This document shows positions 22,205-32,244 of a DNA stretch of 64,000 nt, piece after piece; the stretch's first letter is position 1, and every line of letters begins with the position of its first letter. The notes below the pieces were generated by a model, which made no database searches, had not been told where the DNA came from, and worked only from the letters and a program-made list of their open reading frames with translations. Source of the DNA: Rhizobiales bacterium NRL2 (GTDB lineage: Bacteria; Pseudomonadota; Alphaproteobacteria; Minwuiales; Minwuiaceae); assembly GCA_001664005.1 (NCBI GenBank), contig CP016093.1, positions 4,269,031 to 4,333,030 of the forward strand, in the 5' to 3' direction. Position numbers and translations under genes: made by a program.

Positions 22205-22555
22205 ATGATCGCGGTGATCTTCGAGGTCGAACCGGCGGAGGGCCAGCGCGAGGCGTATCTCGACATCGCCGCGGCGATCCGGCCCGAACTGGAGAAGATC
22301 GACGGCTTCATCTCGGTGGAGCGTTTCCAGAGCCTGAACGATCCCGGCCGGATCCTCTCGCTCTCCTTCTTCCGCGACGAGGACGCGGTGATCCGCTGGC
22401 GCAACCTGGAGGCTCACCGCCGGGCGCAGGCGAAGGGACGCGGCGGCGTCTTCGCCGGCTACCGGCTGCGCGTGGCGCAGGTCCTGCGCGACTATGGCAT
22501 GGACGACCGGGCCGAGGCCCCGGACGACAGCCGCCAACGCCACGAAGACCGTTGA
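22205..22555 (+). CDS. Antibiotic biosynthesis monooxygenase (ABM) domain protein
   Basis: A 116-residue protein with the dimeric alpha-beta barrel fold of the ABM family. The start MIAVIFEVEPAEGQREAYLD, the central FISVERFQSLNDPGRILSLSFF and the DAVIRWRNLEAHRRAQAKG segment are characteristic. Members act as small cofactor-free oxygenases, heme-degrading enzymes or as unknown quinone-handling proteins. No heme-ligating asparagine pair can be assigned with confidence. It is the first plus-strand gene after the polysaccharide operon and overlaps or abuts the nucleotidyltransferase-like gene. Substrate unknown. Confidence 0.82.
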   Translation: MIAVIFEVEPAEGQREAYLDIAAAIRPELEKIDGFISVERFQSLNDPGRILSLSFFRDEDAVIRWRNLEAHRRAQAKGRGGVFAGYRLRVAQVLRDYGMDDRAEAPDDSRQRHEDR

Positions 22556-23708
22556 CCTGCCGGGGAGCCGGGCGGATGGTTTCCCGCGGTGCAGGGATGC
22601 AGAACAGGAAACAATTCTTATCGCGCTGTCCCGAAACGATACAGACAGTCTGCCGAAAGGCGAATCCCCCGATCCCGTCTGGGGCGCGGTCGCGGGCCTG
22701 CCCGTGCAGCCCGGGCCGGACGATGCGGCGCGCCTGACGGCCCTGGCGGCACTGATCTCGGCCGCAACCGCTGCGGCCGTGATCCCCGGCGCCGAGACCA
22801 TGCTGGCCGCCGACGAGGTGCGGCAGGCGCGCCTGCTCAACCGTTTCCGTCGTCTGCAGGGCGAGAAATGGGCGGCGGCGCTGATGGAAGCGGGCATCCC
22901 CAATGTCGCCCTGAAGGGCCTTGCCTCGGCGCATTGTCTCTATCCCTCGCCGGACGACCGGGCGGTGTCGGACGCGGACCTGCTGATCCGTCCGTCCGAC
23001 CTGGGCGCCGCCCTGAAACTGCTGACTGCCCGGGGCTTCGCCTTCGCCGAAACACCGACCCGCAGCCCATGGGGGTTCGTCAGCGAAGCCAGCTTCCAGC
23101 CCCTGATCGGAGAGGACGGCGCGAACATCGACCTCCATGTCCAGGCGGCGGCGCATCCGTTCGAGAGGGTTCTCCCCGTCGCCGACATCATGGCGCAGAG
23201 CTGCGGCGCCGGGGCCGCCGGACTGCGCGTTCCGGCCCCGGAACACCGTTTCCTGATCGCCGCGGCCCACGCGGCCGGAGACCTGTTCACCGCGGATGCC
23301 ATCAAGTCGGTGATCGACGGCCTGCTGATGCTGCGCCGGGCCAGCGACCTCGACTGGACCGGGATGCGCCGCCGGGTCGACGCAGGCGGCATGCGCCGTC
23401 CCGTCACCGCCTACCTGGCGCTGCTGGGTGCGCTGGGCGGCGATATCGCGCCCGCCGGCCGCGCCGGCTTCGAACCCGAACGGGTCCGGGGTCCGACGCT
23501 GGCGCGGGTGATCGCGGACCACCGCGCCGTCTTCGTGGACCGGCCCGAACCTTCGGCGCTGGAGCGGCTGCGGCGGGAGGCGGCGCTGGCCGCATCCTGG
23601 CCGGTTCTGGCCCGCCGCAACTGGCGCCGCCTGACCGGCCTGCTGCGCCCCAGGCGCGGCCGTCCCGATGGCGAAACCGGGGGTGCGATGGCACGGAGAT
23701 TGCCTTAG
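22494..23708 (+). CDS. Nucleotidyltransferase-family protein (NTP_transf_5-like), start uncertain
   Basis: The core reads as the PF14907 nucleotidyltransferase-like family: ALMEAGIPNVALKGLA, then SDADLLIRPSDLGAALKLL with the metal-binding D-x-D of this fold, and NIDLHVQAAAHPFE with a further acidic residue. The protein is cytoplasmic. The substrate is unknown; relatives sit beside peptide-modification and export genes. The start is odd. The only upstream ATG (22494) lies 62 bases inside the monooxygenase gene without a ribosome site, while an in-frame ATT at 22614 follows AGGAA closely; GTG at 22704 is another option. The conserved part begins near 22710, so any start works. It opens a four-gene unit with an ABC exporter and HlyD adaptor. 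Confidence 0.75.
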   Translation: MAWTTGPRPRTTAANATKTVDLPGSRADGFPRCRDAEQETILIALSRNDTDSLPKGESPDPVWGAVAGLPVQPGPDDAARLTALAALISAATAAAVIPGAETMLAADEVRQARLLNRFRRLQGEKWAAALMEAGIPNVALKGLASAHCLYPSPDDRAVSDADLLIRPSDLGAALKLLTARGFAFAETPTRSPWGFVSEASFQPLIGEDGANIDLHVQAAAHPFERVLPVADIMAQSCGAGAAGLRVPAPEHRFLIAAAHAAGDLFTADAIKSVIDGLLMLRRASDLDWTGMRRRVDAGGMRRPVTAYLALLGALGGDIAPAGRAGFEPERVRGPTLARVIADHRAVFVDRPEPSALERLRREAALAASWPVLARRNWRRLTGLLRPRRGRPDGETGGAMARRLP

Positions 23709-23744
23709 GATCGGGTTCACCCCGGGGCAGGAATCGGCAAGGCC

Positions 23745-24542
23745 ATGGACATGTTCGCGTATCTGAAGGGCGGCGAGGAAACCGGCGAAGGACAGCGTGT
23801 CGCCCCGGAACGCCGTGTCCTGGAGGTCGGCTACATCCTCGACACCGACAAGGCCGGCTTCATCTGGGAAGCGCCGCGCCAGTTCCGCCGCAACGACCCG
23901 CCCGCCCAGCACGCCAAATCGGCGGCCATGTGCCCGGCGGTGCTGGACTACGAATCCCGTCTCTACGAGGTGCCGTGCCCGATCGACGTCCAGCTCCGCT
24001 TCAAGATGGACGACAACGGCCAGCCGCAGCTCGTCAACCTCGCCGGCGACAAGAGCTCCATCCGTTCCAAGCACCTGCGCCAGATGGTGGCGGTGATGGC
24101 GCGCAAGGAATGGCGTCATCCCAACCGCCCGATCATCCAGTTCATCACGCCCTACATCTTCGTCGCCGACGACATCTGCTGGATGAACCAGATGCCAGCC
24201 TTCAGCCACTACCGCCCCGCCCCCCTGCCCGGCACGATGATCGGCGGACGGCTGCCGATCCACATCTGGCCGCGGCCGATGATGTGGGCCTTCGAATGGT
24301 GGGAGCCGTCGAAGGATCTGGTGCTGCGCCGGGGCGAGCCGTGGTTCTACCTGCGCTTCGAGACCGACGACCCGCGCCGGCCGATCCGCATGGTCGAAGC
24401 CGAGAAGACGGAGACGCTGACGCGCTACATGACCGGCCTCAACAGCGTCACCAATTACGTCAACCGGACCTTCTCGCTGTTTCAGGTAGCAGAGCAGCGG
24501 CGGCCGGCGAAGCTGGTGCAGAAGAAGATGGCGAAGGGCTGA
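23745..24542 (+). CDS. Uncharacterised 265-residue protein upstream of an ABC exporter
   Basis: I do not recognise the family. There is no signal peptide, membrane segment or lipobox. The sequence is rich in Trp, Pro and Arg, with conserved-looking blocks CPAVLDYESRLYEVPCPIDV (two cysteines around residues 65-81), PIIQFITPYIFVADD, LPIHIWPRPMMWAFEWWEP and EPWFYLRFETDD. Such a pattern suits a globular beta-rich enzyme or binding protein. The stop TGA is directly followed by the ATG of the ABC exporter (no gap), so the two are translationally coupled. It may be the dedicated substrate-maturation or recognition protein of that exporter; this is inference. Confidence 0.7.
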   Translation: MDMFAYLKGGEETGEGQRVAPERRVLEVGYILDTDKAGFIWEAPRQFRRNDPPAQHAKSAAMCPAVLDYESRLYEVPCPIDVQLRFKMDDNGQPQLVNLAGDKSSIRSKHLRQMVAVMARKEWRHPNRPIIQFITPYIFVADDICWMNQMPAFSHYRPAPLPGTMIGGRLPIHIWPRPMMWAFEWWEPSKDLVLRRGEPWFYLRFETDDPRRPIRMVEAEKTETLTRYMTGLNSVTNYVNRTFSLFQVAEQRRPAKLVQKKMAKG

Positions 24543-26975
24543 ATGGCCGAGGACGGCGACAGCACCGGCGACGGCTGGTCGAGGATCGGCCGCATCACGC
24601 CGACGAAGCGGCCGGCCACGCCGGAGGAAGCGGCCGAGCACCGCCGGCGCACCGCCGGCGCGCATCTGCATGTCGTCGCCAGCAAGCCGGGCGCGCGCCC
24701 GGTCGCCGACCTGTCGGAGGAAGCCTGGCGGCGGCCCGAGCCACAGCGCCGTGCGCAGGCCGCGCCGGCCCCTGAGAACCCGCCCGCCGGAGACGCCGCC
24801 GATACGCCGCTGCCGACGGCGGCAGCCAGCGGCCGGCCGCGGATCGACGTGCTGCGCCGGCTGCTGATCCGCATCACCCGGGATCTGGGCCGGCCGATCG
24901 GCGCGGCCGATATCCAGACCGCTGCGCCCGGGGCAGGCAGCCCCATGACGCTGGACGGCTTCCGCCTCGCCGCCGAGCGGCTTGGATTCCCGGTCACCGA
25001 ACAGGCCTTCGACGCCGGCGCGCTGCGGCGCCTGCAGGCGCCCTTCGTGATCCTGGACGCGAAGGATCCTTCGGCCTCCCGCTCCGTGGTGCGGCGCGAG
25101 GGGTCGGGCTACCTCGTCTACGATCCGGTGCGCGAACAGACGGAGGTCCTGGACGCCGGCGGCGTCGCCGCCCTTGGCCGTCGGGCGCTGGTCGTCAAGG
25201 CGCCCCAGACCGGCGTCAAGCGCCAGCGCGACTGGCGCGGCCATGTCGTGCGCAAGATGCGCGGCGTGCTGCTGGAACTCGGCGTCGCGTCCCTGCTGAT
25301 CAACCTGTTCGCGCTGGCCGCGCCGCTGTTCATCATGACCGTGTTCAACAAGGTCGTCGGTTCCGGCGGCGGGGCGCAGTCGACCCTGTTCTCGCTGACC
25401 ATCGGCATGGTGGTGATCTACCTCTTCGATCTGATCCTGCGGATCGTGCGGGTCTATGTCTCCAGCCACACCGGCGCGCGGGTGGAGAGCCTAATCGGCG
25501 GCGAACTGGTCCATCACCTGCTGCGCCTGCCCTACAAGCATTTCGAGAACACCGCCTCCGGCGTCATCTCGGAGCGGATGCGCCAGCTCGACACCATCCG
25601 CAGCTTCTTCACCGGCCAGATGCCGCTGGTGATCGTCGATCTTCTGTTCGTCGTGGTCTTCCTCGCGGCGCTGCTGCTGATCGAGCCCCTGATCGCGCTG
25701 GTCGTCGCGGTGGCGATCCCGATCTTCGTCGCGCTGTCGGTGGCCACCCACGGCCGCCAGAAGAAACTGACCGAGCAGAACTTCCTCGGCCAGGCGGCCA
25801 AGGCGTCGGCCCTGCACGAGACCATGGCCAACGCGCTGACCGTGAAGTCGCTGGGTCTGGAATCGGAGATCGAGCGGCGCTGGGATCACCGTCTCGGCCT
25901 CTCGGCCTGGACCGGCTACCGCTCCAACAGCCTCGCCGGCGTGCTGTCCGCCATCGGCCAGAACCTGCAGCAGATCCTCAGCCTGGTCGTCATCGTCATC
26001 GGCGCCCTGCTGATCATGTCGGGCGACATGTCGATCGGCGCGCTGATCGCCACCAACATCCTGGCGACGCGGGCGGTGGCGCCCATGCGCCAGGTCGTCG
26101 GCGCCTGGCACCAGGTGCAGGAGGTCCGCTCGGCCTTCGAACGCATCGACGACATCATGTCGGAGGAGCCGGAGGCCGAGCCCGGCGAGCTCAGCCCCGG
26201 GTCTCCCTTCGAGGGCAAGATCGCCTTCGAGAACGTCTCCTACCGCTATGCCGACGACCTGCCCTTCGTGCTCGACAATGTCACTCTGGAGATCGGCGCC
26301 GGCCAGGTCTTCGGCATCATCGGCCCGTCGGGCCAGGGCAAGACGACGCTGTCCAAGCTGATCCAGGGCCTCTACCAGCCCGATCACGGCCGGGTTCTGA
26401 TCGACGACACCGACATCTCGCACCTGTCGCCGGCCACGCTGCGCCGCCAGATCGGCGTCGTGCCCCAGGACGTCCAGCTGTTCGCAGGCACGGTGCGCGA
26501 GAACATCGCCATGGGCATCGACGACAAGGATCCCGCGCGCGTCGAATCGGTCGCCAAGTTCGTCGGCGCGCACGAATTCATCCAGCGCCTGCCCAAGGGC
26601 TACGACACGGTGCTGAGCGAGCGCGGCGGCGGCCTGTCGTCCGGTCAGCGCCAGCTTCTCGCGGTGGCGCGCGCGCTGATCCGCAATCCGAAGATCCTGA
26701 TCTTCGACGAGGCCACCAGCGCGCTCGATCCGGGCTCCGAGGAGCGGCTGATCCGCGCCGTCAACCGCGCCCGGCGCGGCCGCACCATCATCCTGATCTC
26801 CCACCGCATGGCGCCCATGGCGATCGCCGACAAGGTGGCGCTGGTGCTGGAGGGACGGGTCGAGCGCATCGGCCCGCCGCAGGAGGTCATCGCCTTCGCC
26901 CGTTCGCGCATGCGCGACGCCGCCATGCCCGGCCAGGGCGGCCAGCCCGCCGCCGGCCAGTCCGGGGACGCCTGA
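24543..26975 (+). CDS. Type I secretion ABC exporter with degenerate C39-like domain
   Basis: An 810-residue inner-membrane exporter of the HlyB/LapB class. It has a low-complexity N-terminal tail, a C39-peptidase-like domain (about residues 95-215) without a visible catalytic Cys, six membrane segments (about 235-510), and a C-terminal ATPase with Walker A GPSGQGKTTLS, Q-loop VVPQDVQLFAG, signature LSSGQRQ, Walker B ILIFDEATSALD and H-loop SHRMAP. A non-cleaving C39-like domain is typical for exporters of large unprocessed proteins such as RTX proteins; no RTX or other candidate cargo gene is seen here. It directly abuts the 265-residue unknown gene and is 7 bases before the HlyD gene. Confidence 0.92.
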   Translation: MAEDGDSTGDGWSRIGRITPTKRPATPEEAAEHRRRTAGAHLHVVASKPGARPVADLSEEAWRRPEPQRRAQAAPAPENPPAGDAADTPLPTAAASGRPRIDVLRRLLIRITRDLGRPIGAADIQTAAPGAGSPMTLDGFRLAAERLGFPVTEQAFDAGALRRLQAPFVILDAKDPSASRSVVRREGSGYLVYDPVREQTEVLDAGGVAALGRRALVVKAPQTGVKRQRDWRGHVVRKMRGVLLELGVASLLINLFALAAPLFIMTVFNKVVGSGGGAQSTLFSLTIGMVVIYLFDLILRIVRVYVSSHTGARVESLIGGELVHHLLRLPYKHFENTASGVISERMRQLDTIRSFFTGQMPLVIVDLLFVVVFLAALLLIEPLIALVVAVAIPIFVALSVATHGRQKKLTEQNFLGQAAKASALHETMANALTVKSLGLESEIERRWDHRLGLSAWTGYRSNSLAGVLSAIGQNLQQILSLVVIVIGALLIMSGDMSIGALIATNILATRAVAPMRQVVGAWHQVQEVRSAFERIDDIMSEEPEAEPGELSPGSPFEGKIAFENVSYRYADDLPFVLDNVTLEIGAGQVFGIIGPSGQGKTTLSKLIQGLYQPDHGRVLIDDTDISHLSPATLRRQIGVVPQDVQLFAGTVRENIAMGIDDKDPARVESVAKFVGAHEFIQRLPKGYDTVLSERGGGLSSGQRQLLAVARALIRNPKILIFDEATSALDPGSEERLIRAVNRARRGRTIILISHRMAPMAIADKVALVLEGRVERIGPPQEVIAFARSRMRDAAMPGQGGQPAAGQSGDA

Positions 26976-26982
26976 CCGCGCC

Positions 26983-28323
26983 ATGTCCAGTCAAGACCGG
27001 TCCAAAGGACCCCAGTACACCGAATTCCTGCCTGAAGCGCAGGCGATCAGCGAAAGCCGGCACTCGCCGCTCGCCACGGTGCTGGTCATGGTCGTCGCGG
27101 GCTTCTTCGTGGCGATCATCCTATGGGCGACGCTGGCGCAGGTCGATCAGGCCGTCGTCGCGCCCGGCGAGGTGCGGCCCGGAGGACGCGTGAAGGTCGT
27201 CAACCATCCGGAGGGCGGGGCCGTCGCCGAAATCCTGGTCCGAGACGGCGATCTGGTGGTCGAAGGCCAGGCCCTGATGATCCTGGACGAGAGCCTGCTC
27301 CGCGCCGAGGAACGACGATTGCGGGGCGATCTGCTGACGCTCGAAGCCGAACTCGCGCGGCTGGAGGCTGAGGCCGGCGGCGACGCCGCCATACGCTTCG
27401 GCCCCGAGGTCATGGCCGAGCGGCCCGACCTGGTGGCCACCCATTCGCGGCTGTTCGAGGCCCGGCGCGATGCGCTGCAGTCCCAGCGCGAAAGCGCCGA
27501 CCGGGAGATCGAGCAGCGCCAGTCGGAGATCAACACCCTGCGCGTGCGCATCCGCACCCTGACCGAGAGCGCGCGGGTGCTGGAGGATCAGGTCGCCTCC
27601 CTGCAGAAACTCACCGACAAGGGCCATTTTCCGTTCCTGCGCTTCCAGTCCATCCAGCGGCAGTTGAACGAGACCCGCGGCGACCTGCAGGAGACCCGGG
27701 AGTCGCTGGAATCGGCGCAGTCGGCCCTGTCGGCGGCGCGATCCCGCCGGCGCGAGATCGACGAGACCGGGCGCGGCAACGTGCTGGCCGATCTGGCCGA
27801 GTCCCGCGGCGCGCGCGACCGCACCGCCGCGGCGCTGGACCAGGCCGAGACGCGCCTGGACCGCACGGTCATCCGCAGCCCCGTCGACGGCTACGTCCAG
27901 AACCTGGCGGTCAACAATCCCGGCCAGGCGGTGCGGCCGAACGAGCCCCTGGCTTCCATCGTCCCGGAGGCGGACAACCTGGTCATCGAGGCGCGCGTGG
28001 CGAACCGCGACATCGGCGCCATAGAACCGGGACAGCCGGCGGTGGTGAAGGTCCGCGCCTACGACTTCATCAAGTACGGCTCGCTGGAAGGCACGGTCGA
28101 ACGGGTCGCCCGGGACGCCAACCGCGATCCGGACACCGGACAGGTCTTCTTCAACGTCGAGATCCGCACCGACAGGACGCATCTGGGCGCGGCCCCGGGC
28201 ATCAACGAGGTCCGCCCCGGCATGGAGGTGGACGCGGAGATGAAGACCGGCAGCCGCTCCGTGCTCTCCTTCCTCACCGATCGGGTGATCGGCACCGCCG
28301 ACGAGGCCTTCCGCGAGCGGTGA
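26983..28323 (+). CDS. HlyD-family type I secretion membrane fusion protein
   Basis: A 446-residue periplasmic adaptor linking an inner-membrane ABC exporter to an outer-membrane TolC-type channel. One N-terminal membrane segment (about residues 27-48) is followed by a lipoyl-like start (VVAPGEVRPGGRVKVVNHPEGG), a long coiled-coil hairpin rich in E, R and Q (about 110-285), and the return half with DRTVIRSPVDGYVQNLAVNN and a beta-barrel ending GMEVDAEMKTG. Length is typical (430-480). The ATG is 7 bases after the ABC gene stop, so both are one operon. The TolC-type partner is not in the window. Confidence 0.92.
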   Translation: MSSQDRSKGPQYTEFLPEAQAISESRHSPLATVLVMVVAGFFVAIILWATLAQVDQAVVAPGEVRPGGRVKVVNHPEGGAVAEILVRDGDLVVEGQALMILDESLLRAEERRLRGDLLTLEAELARLEAEAGGDAAIRFGPEVMAERPDLVATHSRLFEARRDALQSQRESADREIEQRQSEINTLRVRIRTLTESARVLEDQVASLQKLTDKGHFPFLRFQSIQRQLNETRGDLQETRESLESAQSALSAARSRRREIDETGRGNVLADLAESRGARDRTAAALDQAETRLDRTVIRSPVDGYVQNLAVNNPGQAVRPNEPLASIVPEADNLVIEARVANRDIGAIEPGQPAVVKVRAYDFIKYGSLEGTVERVARDANRDPDTGQVFFNVEIRTDRTHLGAAPGINEVRPGMEVDAEMKTGSRSVLSFLTDRVIGTADEAFRER

Positions 28324-28423
28324 TCCCGCTCGCGCCCCGACCAGAGGTTGATTTGAGTCAAGCCTTGAAGTCGCTGGACGTGCTTTCATCTGCCGGAGTG
28401 CGAACCGGCAAGGGAGCAGCACA

Positions 28424-29056
28424 ATGACAACGAAATCGACTTTCGTGACAATGATCGCCGCGGCGGTCGCGTTGACCGTTTCCGCAGCGGCCGGCGCCCA
28501 TGAGAGGGGCAACTGGCCCGGACGTGGTGGTCCCGGCATGATGGGCCAGAGCATGGATCCCGGCATGATGGGCCAGGGCATGGGCCCCGGCATGAAGCAG
28601 GGTCCCTGCCCGATGGGCGGTCAGGGCATGATGCAGGGCCGCGGCATGATGGGTGGTCAGGGCCCCGGCATGATGGGCGGCGGCCATGGCATGATGCACG
28701 GACAAGGCATGATGGGTGGTCAGGGCCCCGGCATGATGGGCGGCGGCCATGGCATGATGCACGGACAAGGCATGATGGGTGGTCAGGGCCCCGGCATGAT
28801 CATGGGCCAGGGCATGGGTCCCGGCATGATGGGCGGTGCCGGGATGATGGCGCTGCGTCAGGATCTGACGGTCGATGATGTGCGCCATATCCTGGGGCAT
28901 CACATCGAATGGCGGGGGAATCCCAACCTGAAGCTCGGCACGGTCGAGGAAACCGACGAAGACACCATCACCGCCGAGATCGTCACCCAGGACGACTCAC
29001 TGGTGCGTCGCCTCGAGATAGACCGCCATACCGGCCAGATGCAGCCCGCCGGATAA
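28424..29056 (+). CDS. Secreted Met/Gly/His-rich repeat protein with a small conserved C-terminal domain
   Basis: A 210-residue exported protein with a Sec signal peptide (cleavage after AAGAH or nearby). Residues about 30-140 are almost only Gly, Met, His, Gln and Pro, built from GMMGG-type motifs and two and a third copies of a 21-residue unit. The last 70 residues (from ALRQDLTVDDVRHILGHHIE to RRLEIDRHTGQMQPAG) form a normal small domain that reminds me of PepSY-like folds. Met/His-rich periplasmic proteins often bind copper or silver, so metal sequestration is plausible but unproven. AAGGGAG precedes the ATG. It lies 100 bases after the HlyD gene and may have its own promoter; a hairpin terminator follows. 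Confidence 0.75.
   Translation: MTTKSTFVTMIAAAVALTVSAAAGAHERGNWPGRGGPGMMGQSMDPGMMGQGMGPGMKQGPCPMGGQGMMQGRGMMGGQGPGMMGGGHGMMHGQGMMGGQGPGMMGGGHGMMHGQGMMGGQGPGMIMGQGMGPGMMGGAGMMALRQDLTVDDVRHILGHHIEWRGNPNLKLGTVEETDEDTITAEIVTQDDSLVRRLEIDRHTGQMQPAG
28651..28800 (+). repeat. 63-bp tandem repeat, about 2.4 copies
   Basis: Units start at 28651, 28714 and 28777 with a period of exactly 63 bases. The first two are near identical; the third stops matching after about 24 bases. The period keeps the reading frame and adds 21 residues per unit to the Met-rich protein, so copy-number change would lengthen or shorten the protein without a frameshift. Confidence 0.85.
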
Positions 29057-29146: not shown

Positions 29147-31570
29147 CTAGGCCAGGCCCGGCCGGATCAGCTTCTGGGGGCGGCGGCCGCGTTCGTAGCG
29201 GGCGGCGGGCGCGTTGACCACGTCGGCCAGCGGCCGGGCGCCGAAGGAGCGCCGGACCTGCCCCTCGGGCGCGTCCGCGTAGGTCGTCGTGCGCTGGCGC
29301 GGCGTGCGGCCGGCGGCGCGGATCAGCGCCTCCATCGCCTCGGGCGGCATCTCCTCGCCATAGGTGGCGCCGGCGGCGCGGGTGATGGTCTCGTTCATCA
29401 GCGTGCCGCCCAGATCGTTGGCCCCGGCGTTGAGACAGGTCTTCACGCCCTCCGGCCCCATCTTCACCCAGCTCGTCTGGATGTTGCCGATCAGGCCGTG
29501 GAAGACCAGCCGCGGAATCGCGTGCATCAGCACCGCCTCGCGGAATGTCGGCCCGCGCCGGGCCCGGCCCTTGAGGTAGATCGGCGCTTCCATGTGCACA
29601 AAGGGCAGCGGCACGAACTCGGTGAAGCCGCCGGTCTCCGCCTGCAGATCCCTGAGCGCCAGCAGGTGCCGGGCCCAGTTGGGATAGCGGTCGACATGGC
29701 CGAACATGATCGTCGCGGTGGTGCGGAAGCCGGCGCCATGCGCGGCGCGCATCACGTCCAGCCACTGCTCCGTGCGGAGCTTGTCGGGGCAGAGAACCTC
29801 GCGGACCTCGTCGTCCAGCACCTCGGCCGCCGTGCCCGGCAGGGTGCCGAGGCCGGCTTCCTTGAGCGACCGGACGAACTCGGCCAGCGGCACGCCGAGT
29901 GTGGCGGCGCCCTGGTGGACCTCCAGCGGCGAAAAGGCGTGGACGTGCATCTCCGGCGCGGCGCGCTTCACCGCCCGGGCGATCTCCAGATAGGTCTCGC
30001 CGGTATAGTCCGGGTGGATGCCGCCCTGCATGCAGACTTCGGTCGCGCCGCGCTCCCAGGCCTCCCGGACGCGGCGGTCGATCTCGTCCAGGCCGATGTC
30101 ATAGGGCCGCCCGCGCAGGTTCTCCGACAGCTTTCCCTTGGAGAAGGCGCAGAACTGGCATTTGAAGTAGCAGACATTGGTGTAGTTGATGTTGCGGGTG
30201 ACGACGTAGGAGACGTTCTCGCCGCTGACCTCCCGGCGCAGGTCGTCCGCCGCCCGCGTCACCGCCAGGAAGTCCGCGCCGCGGGCCTGGAACAGGCGCA
30301 CGATCTCCGCCTCGGACGGGGCCTTACCGGCCATCGCCCGGTCCAGGATCGGCGTCAGCCGGTCCGACGCCCGGACCGCCGGCAGGGCGGGCACGGCGTC
30401 GTGGTCGCCGGGCGACCAGGAATCCGCGCGCACCAGTCCCTGACCGTCGATCCGGTCCAGCACCGGCTTGACGAAGCGCTTGTCCAGCCAGCGTTCCGGC
30501 TTCAGCGCGTATTCGGCATAGACCGGCAGACGCTGGACCAGCTGCTTGCCGGCCCGTTCGGTTTCCTCGGCCAGCTTCTCCAGATGCGGCCAGGGCGCTT
30601 CCGGATTGACGAAGTCGGGAGTGACGGGGCTGACCCCGCCCCAGTCGTCGATGCCGGCGCCGACAAGCTGCGGCAGCACGCCGGGGCTGAGATTGGGCGG
30701 CGCCTGGATGTGCATCTCCGGTCCGAAGATCAGCCGCGCCGCGGCGATGGTCCAGAGCAGTTCGTCCAGGCTCGGCTCCGGCGCGCTCTTCATCTTGGTG
30801 TCCGGCTTGGCGCGGAAGTTCTGGACGATGATCTCCTGGATGTGGCCGTGTCGGTCGTCCAGCTCGCGCAGGCGGAGCAGCGAGGAGATGCGGTCCGCGC
30901 GGCTCTCGCCGATGCCGATCAGGATGCCGGAGGTGAAGGGCACGGCGGCCTCGCCGGCGGCGTCCATGCACTCGATCCGCCGCGCCGGGATCTTGTCGGG
31001 GGAGCCGAAATGCGGCTGGCCGCGCTCCAGCAGCTTCTCCGAATCGCTCTCCAGCATGATGCCCATGGAGACCGAGACCTCGCGCAGGCGCTTCAGTTCC
31101 TCCAGGCTCATCAGGCCGGGATTGAGATGCGGCAGCAGGCCGGTCTCGGTGAACACCAGCTCGGCCATCGCGGCCAGGTAGTCGAGCGTCGTCGCGTAGC
31201 CCAGCCGCTCCAGCGCCTCGCGCGCGGCACGGTAACGCAGTTCTGGCTTGTCGCCGAGCGTGAACAGCGCCTCGGTGCAGCCGGCCGCCGCGCCCTTGGC
31301 GGCGATCTCGAGAACCTGCTCGGGCGACAGGAACGCCGCCTCGCCCTTCCGGGGCGGCTCGGCGAAGGTGCAGTAGTGGCAGACGTCGCGGCAGAGGTGG
31401 GTCAGCGGGATGAAGACCTTGCGCGAATAGGTCACCGTGTCGCCATGGCCACGGTCCCGAAGCTCGGCGGCGGCCGCCAGCATGCCGTCCAGCGGCGCCT
31501 GCAGCAGCGACTGGGCCTCCCGCTCGTCCGGCCGGCGTCCGGCCAGCGCCCCCTCGATCACGCCATTCAT
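29147..31570 (-). CDS. fbiC: FO synthase, fused CofG-CofH (FbiC type), coenzyme F420 biosynthesis
   Basis: An 807-residue fusion of two radical-SAM enzymes that together make FO, the deazaflavin core of F420, from 5-amino-6-ribitylaminouracil and tyrosine. The CofG half carries CRDVCHYC (near residue 72) and the CofH half CYFKCQFC (near residue 530), each a CxxxCxxC iron-sulfur site. The fused form is usual in actinobacteria and some proteobacteria, while archaea have separate genes. The start at 31570 forms an ATGA overlap with the end of cofC, so the two are translationally coupled; the longer upstream open frame is the antisense-like remainder within cofC. Confidence 0.93.
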   Translation of the reverse strand: MNGVIEGALAGRRPDEREAQSLLQAPLDGMLAAAAELRDRGHGDTVTYSRKVFIPLTHLCRDVCHYCTFAEPPRKGEAAFLSPEQVLEIAAKGAAAGCTEALFTLGDKPELRYRAAREALERLGYATTLDYLAAMAELVFTETGLLPHLNPGLMSLEELKRLREVSVSMGIMLESDSEKLLERGQPHFGSPDKIPARRIECMDAAGEAAVPFTSGILIGIGESRADRISSLLRLRELDDRHGHIQEIIVQNFRAKPDTKMKSAPEPSLDELLWTIAAARLIFGPEMHIQAPPNLSPGVLPQLVGAGIDDWGGVSPVTPDFVNPEAPWPHLEKLAEETERAGKQLVQRLPVYAEYALKPERWLDKRFVKPVLDRIDGQGLVRADSWSPGDHDAVPALPAVRASDRLTPILDRAMAGKAPSEAEIVRLFQARGADFLAVTRAADDLRREVSGENVSYVVTRNINYTNVCYFKCQFCAFSKGKLSENLRGRPYDIGLDEIDRRVREAWERGATEVCMQGGIHPDYTGETYLEIARAVKRAAPEMHVHAFSPLEVHQGAATLGVPLAEFVRSLKEAGLGTLPGTAAEVLDDEVREVLCPDKLRTEQWLDVMRAAHGAGFRTTATIMFGHVDRYPNWARHLLALRDLQAETGGFTEFVPLPFVHMEAPIYLKGRARRGPTFREAVLMHAIPRLVFHGLIGNIQTSWVKMGPEGVKTCLNAGANDLGGTLMNETITRAAGATYGEEMPPEAMEALIRAAGRTPRQRTTTYADAPEGQVRRSFGARPLADVVNAPAARYERGRRPQKLIRPGLA

Positions 31571-32244
31571 GCGGTCTGGTCCTTGTCGCGGTCGGCCCGG
31601 AGCCGTTCGGCGATGCCGCTTTCCTGCAGAAAGCGGAGCGTGCGGGTCTGCGGCGCCATTTCGAGGAACTTCAGCACGTCCTCGGGCGTATCGATATCCA
31701 GCCCGATGCCCGGCAGCGGCCGGATCTTCGCCGTCACGCCGGCCTTCTCGGCCTCGTCGCAATGGGGTTTGAAGCTGTCATGACCGAAATGAAACGGGAT
31801 GATGTCGGGCGGGGTCGCCACGATGCAGTTGGTGCCGCGCCGGTCATGGCTGGGCGAAAGCGTCACCGAACGCGCCTCGTGGCCGTTCAGCAGCACCAGT
31901 TCGTCGATCTCGCTGGCCCGCAGTCCCGGCGCATCGCCCGGCAGGGTGATGACGCCCCGGCTCTCCCGCGCCATGGCCCACAAGACGCCGCGCTGCACGG
32001 CCGTCGACTGGCCCTCGTTCTGCGGCTCGACCAGCAGCTCCGCACCGTGGCGGTCGGCCAGTTCGCGCGCCTTCGGTTCCCGGCTGACGATCAGAACGCC
32101 ATCGGCTGCCGCGACCTTGCGCGCCTCGGACAGGACGTCCTCCAGCATGGTCTCGAACAGGCGGCGGCGTTCCGCCGGCGTCAGGGCGCCGGACAGGCGT
32201 TGCTTGGCCTGATCAAGGTTCTTGATCGGCAGGATGATCCACAT
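31567..32244 (-). CDS. cofC: 2-phospholactate/phosphoenolpyruvate guanylyltransferase (CofC/FbiD)
   Basis: A 225-residue nucleotidyltransferase with a MobA-like fold that activates 2-phospholactate, or phosphoenolpyruvate in many bacteria, with GTP for F420 side-chain synthesis. The N-terminus MWIILPIKNLDQAKQRLSGA with the conserved Lys residues, TLPGDAPGLRASEID (metal and GTP site) and SPSHDRRGTNCIVATPP are diagnostic. MWIILPIK at 32244 is taken as the start since the upstream residues are not family-like, although the ribosome site is weak. It leads the cofC-fbiC operon, transcribed away from an F420-type oxidoreductase. CofD and CofE, needed to finish F420, are not in the window. Confidence 0.92.
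   Translation of the reverse strand: MWIILPIKNLDQAKQRLSGALTPAERRRLFETMLEDVLSEARKVAAADGVLIVSREPKARELADRHGAELLVEPQNEGQSTAVQRGVLWAMARESRGVITLPGDAPGLRASEIDELVLLNGHEARSVTLSPSHDRRGTNCIVATPPDIIPFHFGHDSFKPHCDEAEKAGVTAKIRPLPGIGLDIDTPEDVLKFLEMAPQTRTLRFLQESGIAERLRADRDKDQTA

Follow-up and report, generated by a model that had tools for sequence, protein, structure and literature searches.

What does a secreted-type protein built largely of methionine and glycine do, when its gene stands apart from copper genes but most of its relatives adjoin metal pumps? The question is raised by a locus in a 64,000-nucleotide stretch of the Rhizobiales bacterium NRL2 genome (contig CP016093.1, positions 4,269,031 to 4,333,030), termed here the window, to which the coordinates below refer unless another sequence is named. 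A preliminary description of this DNA had noted a Met/Gly-rich protein of secreted type with a 63-bp in-frame tandem repeat, and had proposed that it handles soft metals such as copper. The open reading frame is present at exactly the noted coordinates, 28424-29056 (+), with the repeat inside it, and its product has 210 aa. The features used in the analysis are as follows.

28348..28361 (+): FNR/FnrL-type box TTGATTTGAGTCAA, centred 69.5 bp upstream of the ATG; read from the sequence, conserved in the same-genus genome G004, and of a rare pattern
28410..28416 (+): probable ribosome-binding site AAGGGAG, by direct reading of the sequence
28424..29056 (+): coding sequence of the Met/Gly-rich, putatively secreted protein, 210 aa, from the list of open reading frames; the ortholog shares start, flanks and C-terminus
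28424..28498 (+): predicted signal peptide, residues 1-25, cleavage AGA^H, rule-based (hydrophobic core and AxA rule)
28499..28501 (+): codon of His26, the predicted mature N-terminal histidine; AxA^H is found in 8 of 14 Met-rich genera
28499..28849 (+): Met/Gly-rich tract, residues 26-142, by composition a predicted soft-metal-binding chain
28531..28595 (+): 27-bp in-frame tandem repeat, 2.4 copies (Tandem Repeats Finder)
28616..28800 (+): 63-bp in-frame tandem repeat, 2.9 copies (GGHGMMHGQGMMGGQGPGMMG; Tandem Repeats Finder and sequence comparison)
28850..29053 (+): C-terminal domain, residues 143-210, helix and three-stranded sheet, PepSY-like at low confidence (33 homologs, AlphaFold2 and structural matches)

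Layout of the protein

The N-terminus shows a hydrophobic segment followed by an AxA site, and by these rules the protein is inferred to be Sec-secreted and periplasmic. The tract that follows, of about 117 residues, has 41% Gly, 26% Met, 9% Gln, 8.5% Pro and 4% His (residues 26-143 counted). The preliminary description had the repeated part consist almost only of Met, Gly, His, Gln and Pro; of these, His is a minor component. It should be noted that a chain poor in His, with a single Cys, counts against a copper-binding function. An antisense His-rich reading frame, 28358-28903 (-), was considered as a gene and rejected; it mirrors the ATG-rich repeat.

Tandem arrays and length change

The 63-bp array is the top-scoring array of the window, with a score of 328, a period of 63, 2.9 copies, a 95% match and zero indels according to Tandem Repeats Finder. 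Over its first 59 bases copy 3 repeats copy 2 exactly, and 6 of the 63 positions differ between copies 1 and 2; thus the array represents a real and recent duplication and not a codon bias. It covers about 62 of the approximately 185 mature residues, or about a third. The second array, of 27 bp (28531-28595), belongs to the same low-complexity tract, and it is this whole tract, not the 63-bp array, that makes up more than half of the mature protein, as had been said of the repeated part.

Length change without frameshift, which had been predicted from the period, is seen between two species. The ortholog in G004 (locus L002), a genome of the same genus, has 181 aa against 210 aa in the window copy, the same neighbors on both sides and a C-terminal domain that is 93% identical. 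It has no 63-bp array, so the array length is not constant among relatives, and every indel within the gene keeps the frame. In-frame arrays of other family members have units of 48, 45, 60, 63, 24, 18 and 15 bp. These various units show that change by way of repeats is usual in the family. No copy of the gene was found in five further genomes of the genus; the gene is thus dispensable, and this counts against the metal-buffering function preferred below.

The C-terminal domain and its distribution

The conserved C-terminal domain mentioned in the preliminary description is real and family-wide. A profile search finds it, at a length of about 65 residues, in 33 of 387 alphaproteobacterial genomes, and the 33 aligned copies share the pattern LT.d.Vr..l......GN.rLk.G.i.......i.a.ivT.dgSLV.r..idr.tG. 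The domain is carried on Met-rich chains and also on unrelated Met-poor chains, so that the roles of domain and chain can be studied separately. A phylum-wide search, in a sample whose class make-up is not given, produced matches within the Alphaproteobacteria only. In plasmid records the domain of the window protein had no match and that of its paralog in the same genome had one weak match.

Scans of the window protein and of the 33 domain copies against Pfam and NCBIfam revealed no convincing family, and searches of PDB sequences with the protein or the domain gave chance matches only. Among PepSY sequence models in particular, none matched the 33 members convincingly, the best case being one member with YPEB_PepSY1-2 at an E value of 0.054. 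By these searches the gene represents an undescribed family, for whose C-terminal domain a curated model is lacking. The papers found do not describe a tandem GMMGG-type tract combined with this domain. An AlphaFold2 model of the domain shows one helix and three main strands (pLDDT 86). Its best structural matches are YpmB (Z 6.5) and YpeB (Z 6.2), which are middling scores, and a Foldseek search of the model against the PDB gave nothing with E below 0.001. The likeness to YpmB and YpeB may reflect merely a common arrangement.

Two further settings of the domain occur in the family. Three loci of one genus (L118, L119 and L120) have two domain copies in tandem inside a single open frame. At L061, L063 and L064, small domain proteins that are Met-poor or contain moderate amounts of Met directly adjoin a response regulator and a histidine kinase.

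Metal pumps and regulators near relatives

Neighboring open reading frames at 35 loci of the family were clustered without preselection, and a boundary of 9% Met divides these loci into 26 Met-rich and 9 Met-poor ones. The commonest neighbor across all loci is a P1B-type ATPase. It is found near 15 of the 26 Met-rich loci, mostly within 1.2 kb, and near none of the 9 Met-poor loci that bear the same domain (Fisher p 0.002). The Met-rich loci with an ATPase represent 10 of 14 genera, a count that omits the borderline loci L064 and L067 (11% Met, no ATPase) and becomes 10 of 16 when both are included. With about 3.3 P1B ATPases per genome, chance proximity is approximately 1.7% per locus and the binomial p is ~2e-15; this p-value and the Fisher p ignore shared ancestry, the loci of one genus not being independent, and they serve as guides only. 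Because the Met-rich relatives associate with P1B ATPases while the Met-poor members do not, the protein is read as one that handles metal.

The same comparison bears on the possibility that the chain binds no metal and is retained merely as a low-complexity spacer for the C-terminal domain. That the domain also sits on unrelated Met-poor N-terminal parts would fit a spacer, but the association with metal ATPases tracks the Met-rich chain and not the domain, and Met in the tract is kept at 9-28% across 14 genera despite changing length and repeat unit. A mere spacer is therefore highly improbable.

Most of the neighboring ATPases have CPC or CPH followed by ALGL, as in pumps of the copper type. 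At L040 and L060 the neighboring ATPase has instead the motif CPCALVI, which we take to suggest export of Zn, Cd or Pb and not of copper, and the MerR genes near these two loci differ in loop type from C-X7-C-P. These two loci count against copper, and they are the ground for considering a binder of Zn/Cd/Pb or of metals broadly in place of a Cu/Ag binder. To this we give only a very small chance, in that the remaining typed ATPases are copper-like and Met thioethers favor Cu(I) (PMC11840665).

Further neighbors recur beside the Met-rich genes, namely DUF2933 and a PEMT/ICMT methyltransferase, both of which also occur in copper clusters in Alteromonas (PMC8478169). In one genus, CueR-type operators, TTCC-N7-GGAA, are found upstream of the Met-rich genes L052, L053 and L054, and a MerR gene with a C-X7-C-P loop adjoins L052 and L054. 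The paralog, at 616 kb of the same genome, has the order DUF2933 - PEMT/ICMT - Met-rich gene - CPH-motif ATPase, and a search of named genomes with a subfamily alignment shows that this order recurs in Parvibaculum, Hoeflea, Dongia and others.

These neighbors also weigh on a role in which the dense surface Met residues would scavenge reactive oxygen or chlorine species and be recycled by MsrPQ, metal binding being secondary. An exposed and presumably flexible chain with 26% Met is consistent with such an oxidant sink, as is the oxidation of periplasmic Met under copper or chlorine stress and its repair by MsrPQ, which one study reports (PMC9302797). However, the ATPase, CueR-type and DUF2933 neighbors would be left unexplained, as would the predicted N-terminal His, and an oxidant sink is regarded as very unlikely.

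The island that holds the paralog (L007:9559-18525, at 605-625 kb of the genome) consists of DUF2933 - ICMT - Met-rich gene - CPH ATPase - APC permease - acetate kinase - phosphoketolase. Its proteins are 84-98% identical to those of islands in Parvibaculum indicum (L094) and in an Actibacterium MAG (L093), which suggests that the island has spread by recent horizontal transfer.

Surroundings of the window gene and an FNR-type box

With respect to copper, the window copy differs from most of its Met-rich relatives. A copper ATPase or regulator close by, as in a copper-resistance operon, is found at the paralog and at most Met-rich relatives and not at the window copy, and the seven P1B-like ATPases detected in the genome are all at other sites. 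The window copy has no copper genes alongside, which counts against copper handling: type I secretion genes are upstream and a convergent gene that resembles a CofG/CofH fusion is downstream. Thus the soft-metal proposal of the preliminary description is borne out for the relatives by their copper-type P1B ATPases, CueR-type regulators and operators and DUF2933/ICMT genes, but the window copy itself is outside any copper cluster.

The upstream genes (22494-28323, +) encode a type I secretion ABC transporter and an HlyD-type adaptor, and are preceded by genes for a nucleotidyltransferase-like protein and an unassigned 265-aa open reading frame. The downstream gene is a long open reading frame, 29147-31762 (-), with a likeness to a CofG/CofH fusion (F420 deazaflavin synthesis), here in an alphaproteobacterium. 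Membership of the Met-rich gene in the type I secretion operon was rejected as the main reading, as the gene has its own signal peptide and ribosome-binding site and an FNR-type box in the intergenic region. A contrary hint comes from four genomes of the same genus in which the CofG/CofH-like gene was located. Neither the Met-rich gene nor the HlyD gene is present there within ~1.5 kb of it, the type I genes being thus likewise not beside it; in one of the four, the contig ends close to the CofG/CofH-like gene.

The box lies between the HlyD gene and the Met-rich gene, and its counterpart in G004 is a perfect dyad, TTGACTTGAGTCAA. The corresponding pattern, TTGAYNNNNRTCAA, has only 20 sites in 4.7 Mb, compared with 6 for a reversed control pattern. 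One of these sites lies ahead of ccoN (NCBIfam TIGR00780) and another ahead of an FnrL-like gene whose product has a cluster of cysteines at its N-terminus; the FnrL model match of this gene, 253 bits, is under the model cut-off of 300. Further sites are close to OmpW, protoglobin-chemotaxis and CBS-BON genes. The Met-rich genes L040 and L060 have an upstream match to the pattern as well. A close upstream site in 3 of 14 genera has a chance of ~6e-6, a rough figure in which ancestry is ignored. A related arrangement is the operon bsl7992-bll7991-bll7990 of Bradyrhizobium diazoefficiens (DUF2933-ICMT-hypothetical), which has a FixK2 box at -59 (PMC9104804). Its order is that of the paralog island, with bll7990 in the position of the Met-rich gene. 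Judged from the box, transcription of the window gene is probably induced at low oxygen via an FnrL-type regulator.

The box and the isolated position of the gene could also indicate a copper-delivery chaperone, which would keep Cu(I) in the periplasm at low oxygen and hand it on for assembly of cbb3 oxidase or a different cuproenzyme, the C-terminal domain serving for docking. The box is of the kind found at ccoN and fnrL, and the window gene stands alone, away from export pumps. Most Met-rich relatives, however, adjoin export ATPases, some with CueR-type control, and this points to detoxification; the absence of the gene from five same-genus genomes is a second point against delivery. A chaperone is considered unlikely, although more probable than the oxidant sink.

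Proposed function and comparison with known proteins

The function that we consider fairly probable is that of a SilE-like periplasmic sponge for Cu(I)/Ag(I) that bears a new domain, with FnrL-type low-oxygen control of the window copy. Cleavage of the signal peptide would leave a long flexible chain of Met, Gly, Gln and Pro in the periplasm, and the many thioethers of this chain would bind several Cu(I) or Ag(I) ions in a weak, reversible manner. For short Met peptides, binding of Cu(I) via three thioethers has a log K of 5-6 (PMC11840665). The C-terminal domain, with its predicted helix-plus-sheet fold, may serve as an anchor or as a docking site for a partner. In most Met-rich relatives, metal that the nearby P1B ATPase delivers to the periplasm would be buffered by the protein. 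Periplasmic copper shifts toward Cu(I) as oxygen drops. For the window copy, an FnrL-type regulator would switch the gene on at low oxygen, when copper would be mostly Cu(I) and the copper enzyme cbb3 oxidase would be made under the same type of box. In-frame tandem duplication would lengthen or shorten the tract and so change its capacity. The tandem array also provides natural length variants whose metal capacity may follow the number of repeats. To our knowledge, few proteins connect oxygen sensing with Cu(I) buffering, and the Met-rich family, if the proposal is true, represents a testable connection of this type.

SilE is a disordered sponge that folds upon binding six Ag+, with the repeated motifs MxxHxxxxxHxxMxx and HxxMxxxHxxMxx (PMC5008109). 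The window protein resembles SilE and PcoE in being small, predicted to be secreted, of low complexity and Met/His-containing, and in an association with metal pumps, which here is that of the relatives; reversible buffering of multiple ions is presumed. By inspection, however, both SilE motifs are missing, the His spacings being unfit and only HxxM occurring. Compared with SilE and PcoE, the window protein also has much more Gly and Met, less His and, in addition, the conserved C-terminal domain. Searches of Pfam, NCBIfam and PDB sequences did not detect homology to SilE.

Other known proteins share single aspects with the window protein. CopM of Synechocystis and other Met-rich periplasmic copper binders are likewise periplasmic proteins tied to copper resistance, but the window protein has no Pfam or NCBIfam match. 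CopI of Rubrivivax, a cupredoxin rich in His and Met that serves copper tolerance when cells grow microaerobically, is similar in linking copper handling to low oxygen and in having a flexible Met-containing segment (PMC13308877), whereas a cupredoxin domain is absent here. The PepSY proteins YpmB and YpeB, the top structural matches, may share with the C-terminal domain its predicted helix followed by a three-stranded sheet; the domain lacks a sequence match to PepSY models and the Z of about 6.5 is middling.

Predicted N-terminal histidine

Rule-based cleavage behind AGA makes His26 the first residue of the mature window protein. Of the 14 genera with Met-rich proteins, 8 have the AxA^H site in these proteins, and no Met-poor member has it. 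In a general set of signal-peptide-cleaved proteins, His is first in 2.6% (PMC12537917), and against this background the recurrence has a binomial p of ~5e-10, with ancestry ignored. An N-terminal His is a copper-chelating feature known for CopC and related proteins, and the predicted His behind an AxA site would be what the window protein has in common with CopC, the histidine-brace proteins and other N-terminal-His metalloproteins. It differs from these in having no CopC fold and no identified second His of a brace; candidate His residues lie in the repeats of the low-complexity N-terminal region. The predicted His at the mature N-terminus could provide a Cu(II) site in addition.

A broader proposal for the family combines such a Cu(II) site at the predicted N-terminal His with an expandable Met-rich Cu(I) sponge and the new small domain in an alphaproteobacterial family, with stand-alone copies under FnrL, so that low oxygen would raise Cu(I) buffering together with cbb3 oxidase. 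This combination is put forward as tentative, with perhaps one chance in three of holding in all its parts. The N-terminal His is not the only form of this region: a second group of members, including the paralog, has instead a conserved H.HHP.E-like motif near the N-terminus.
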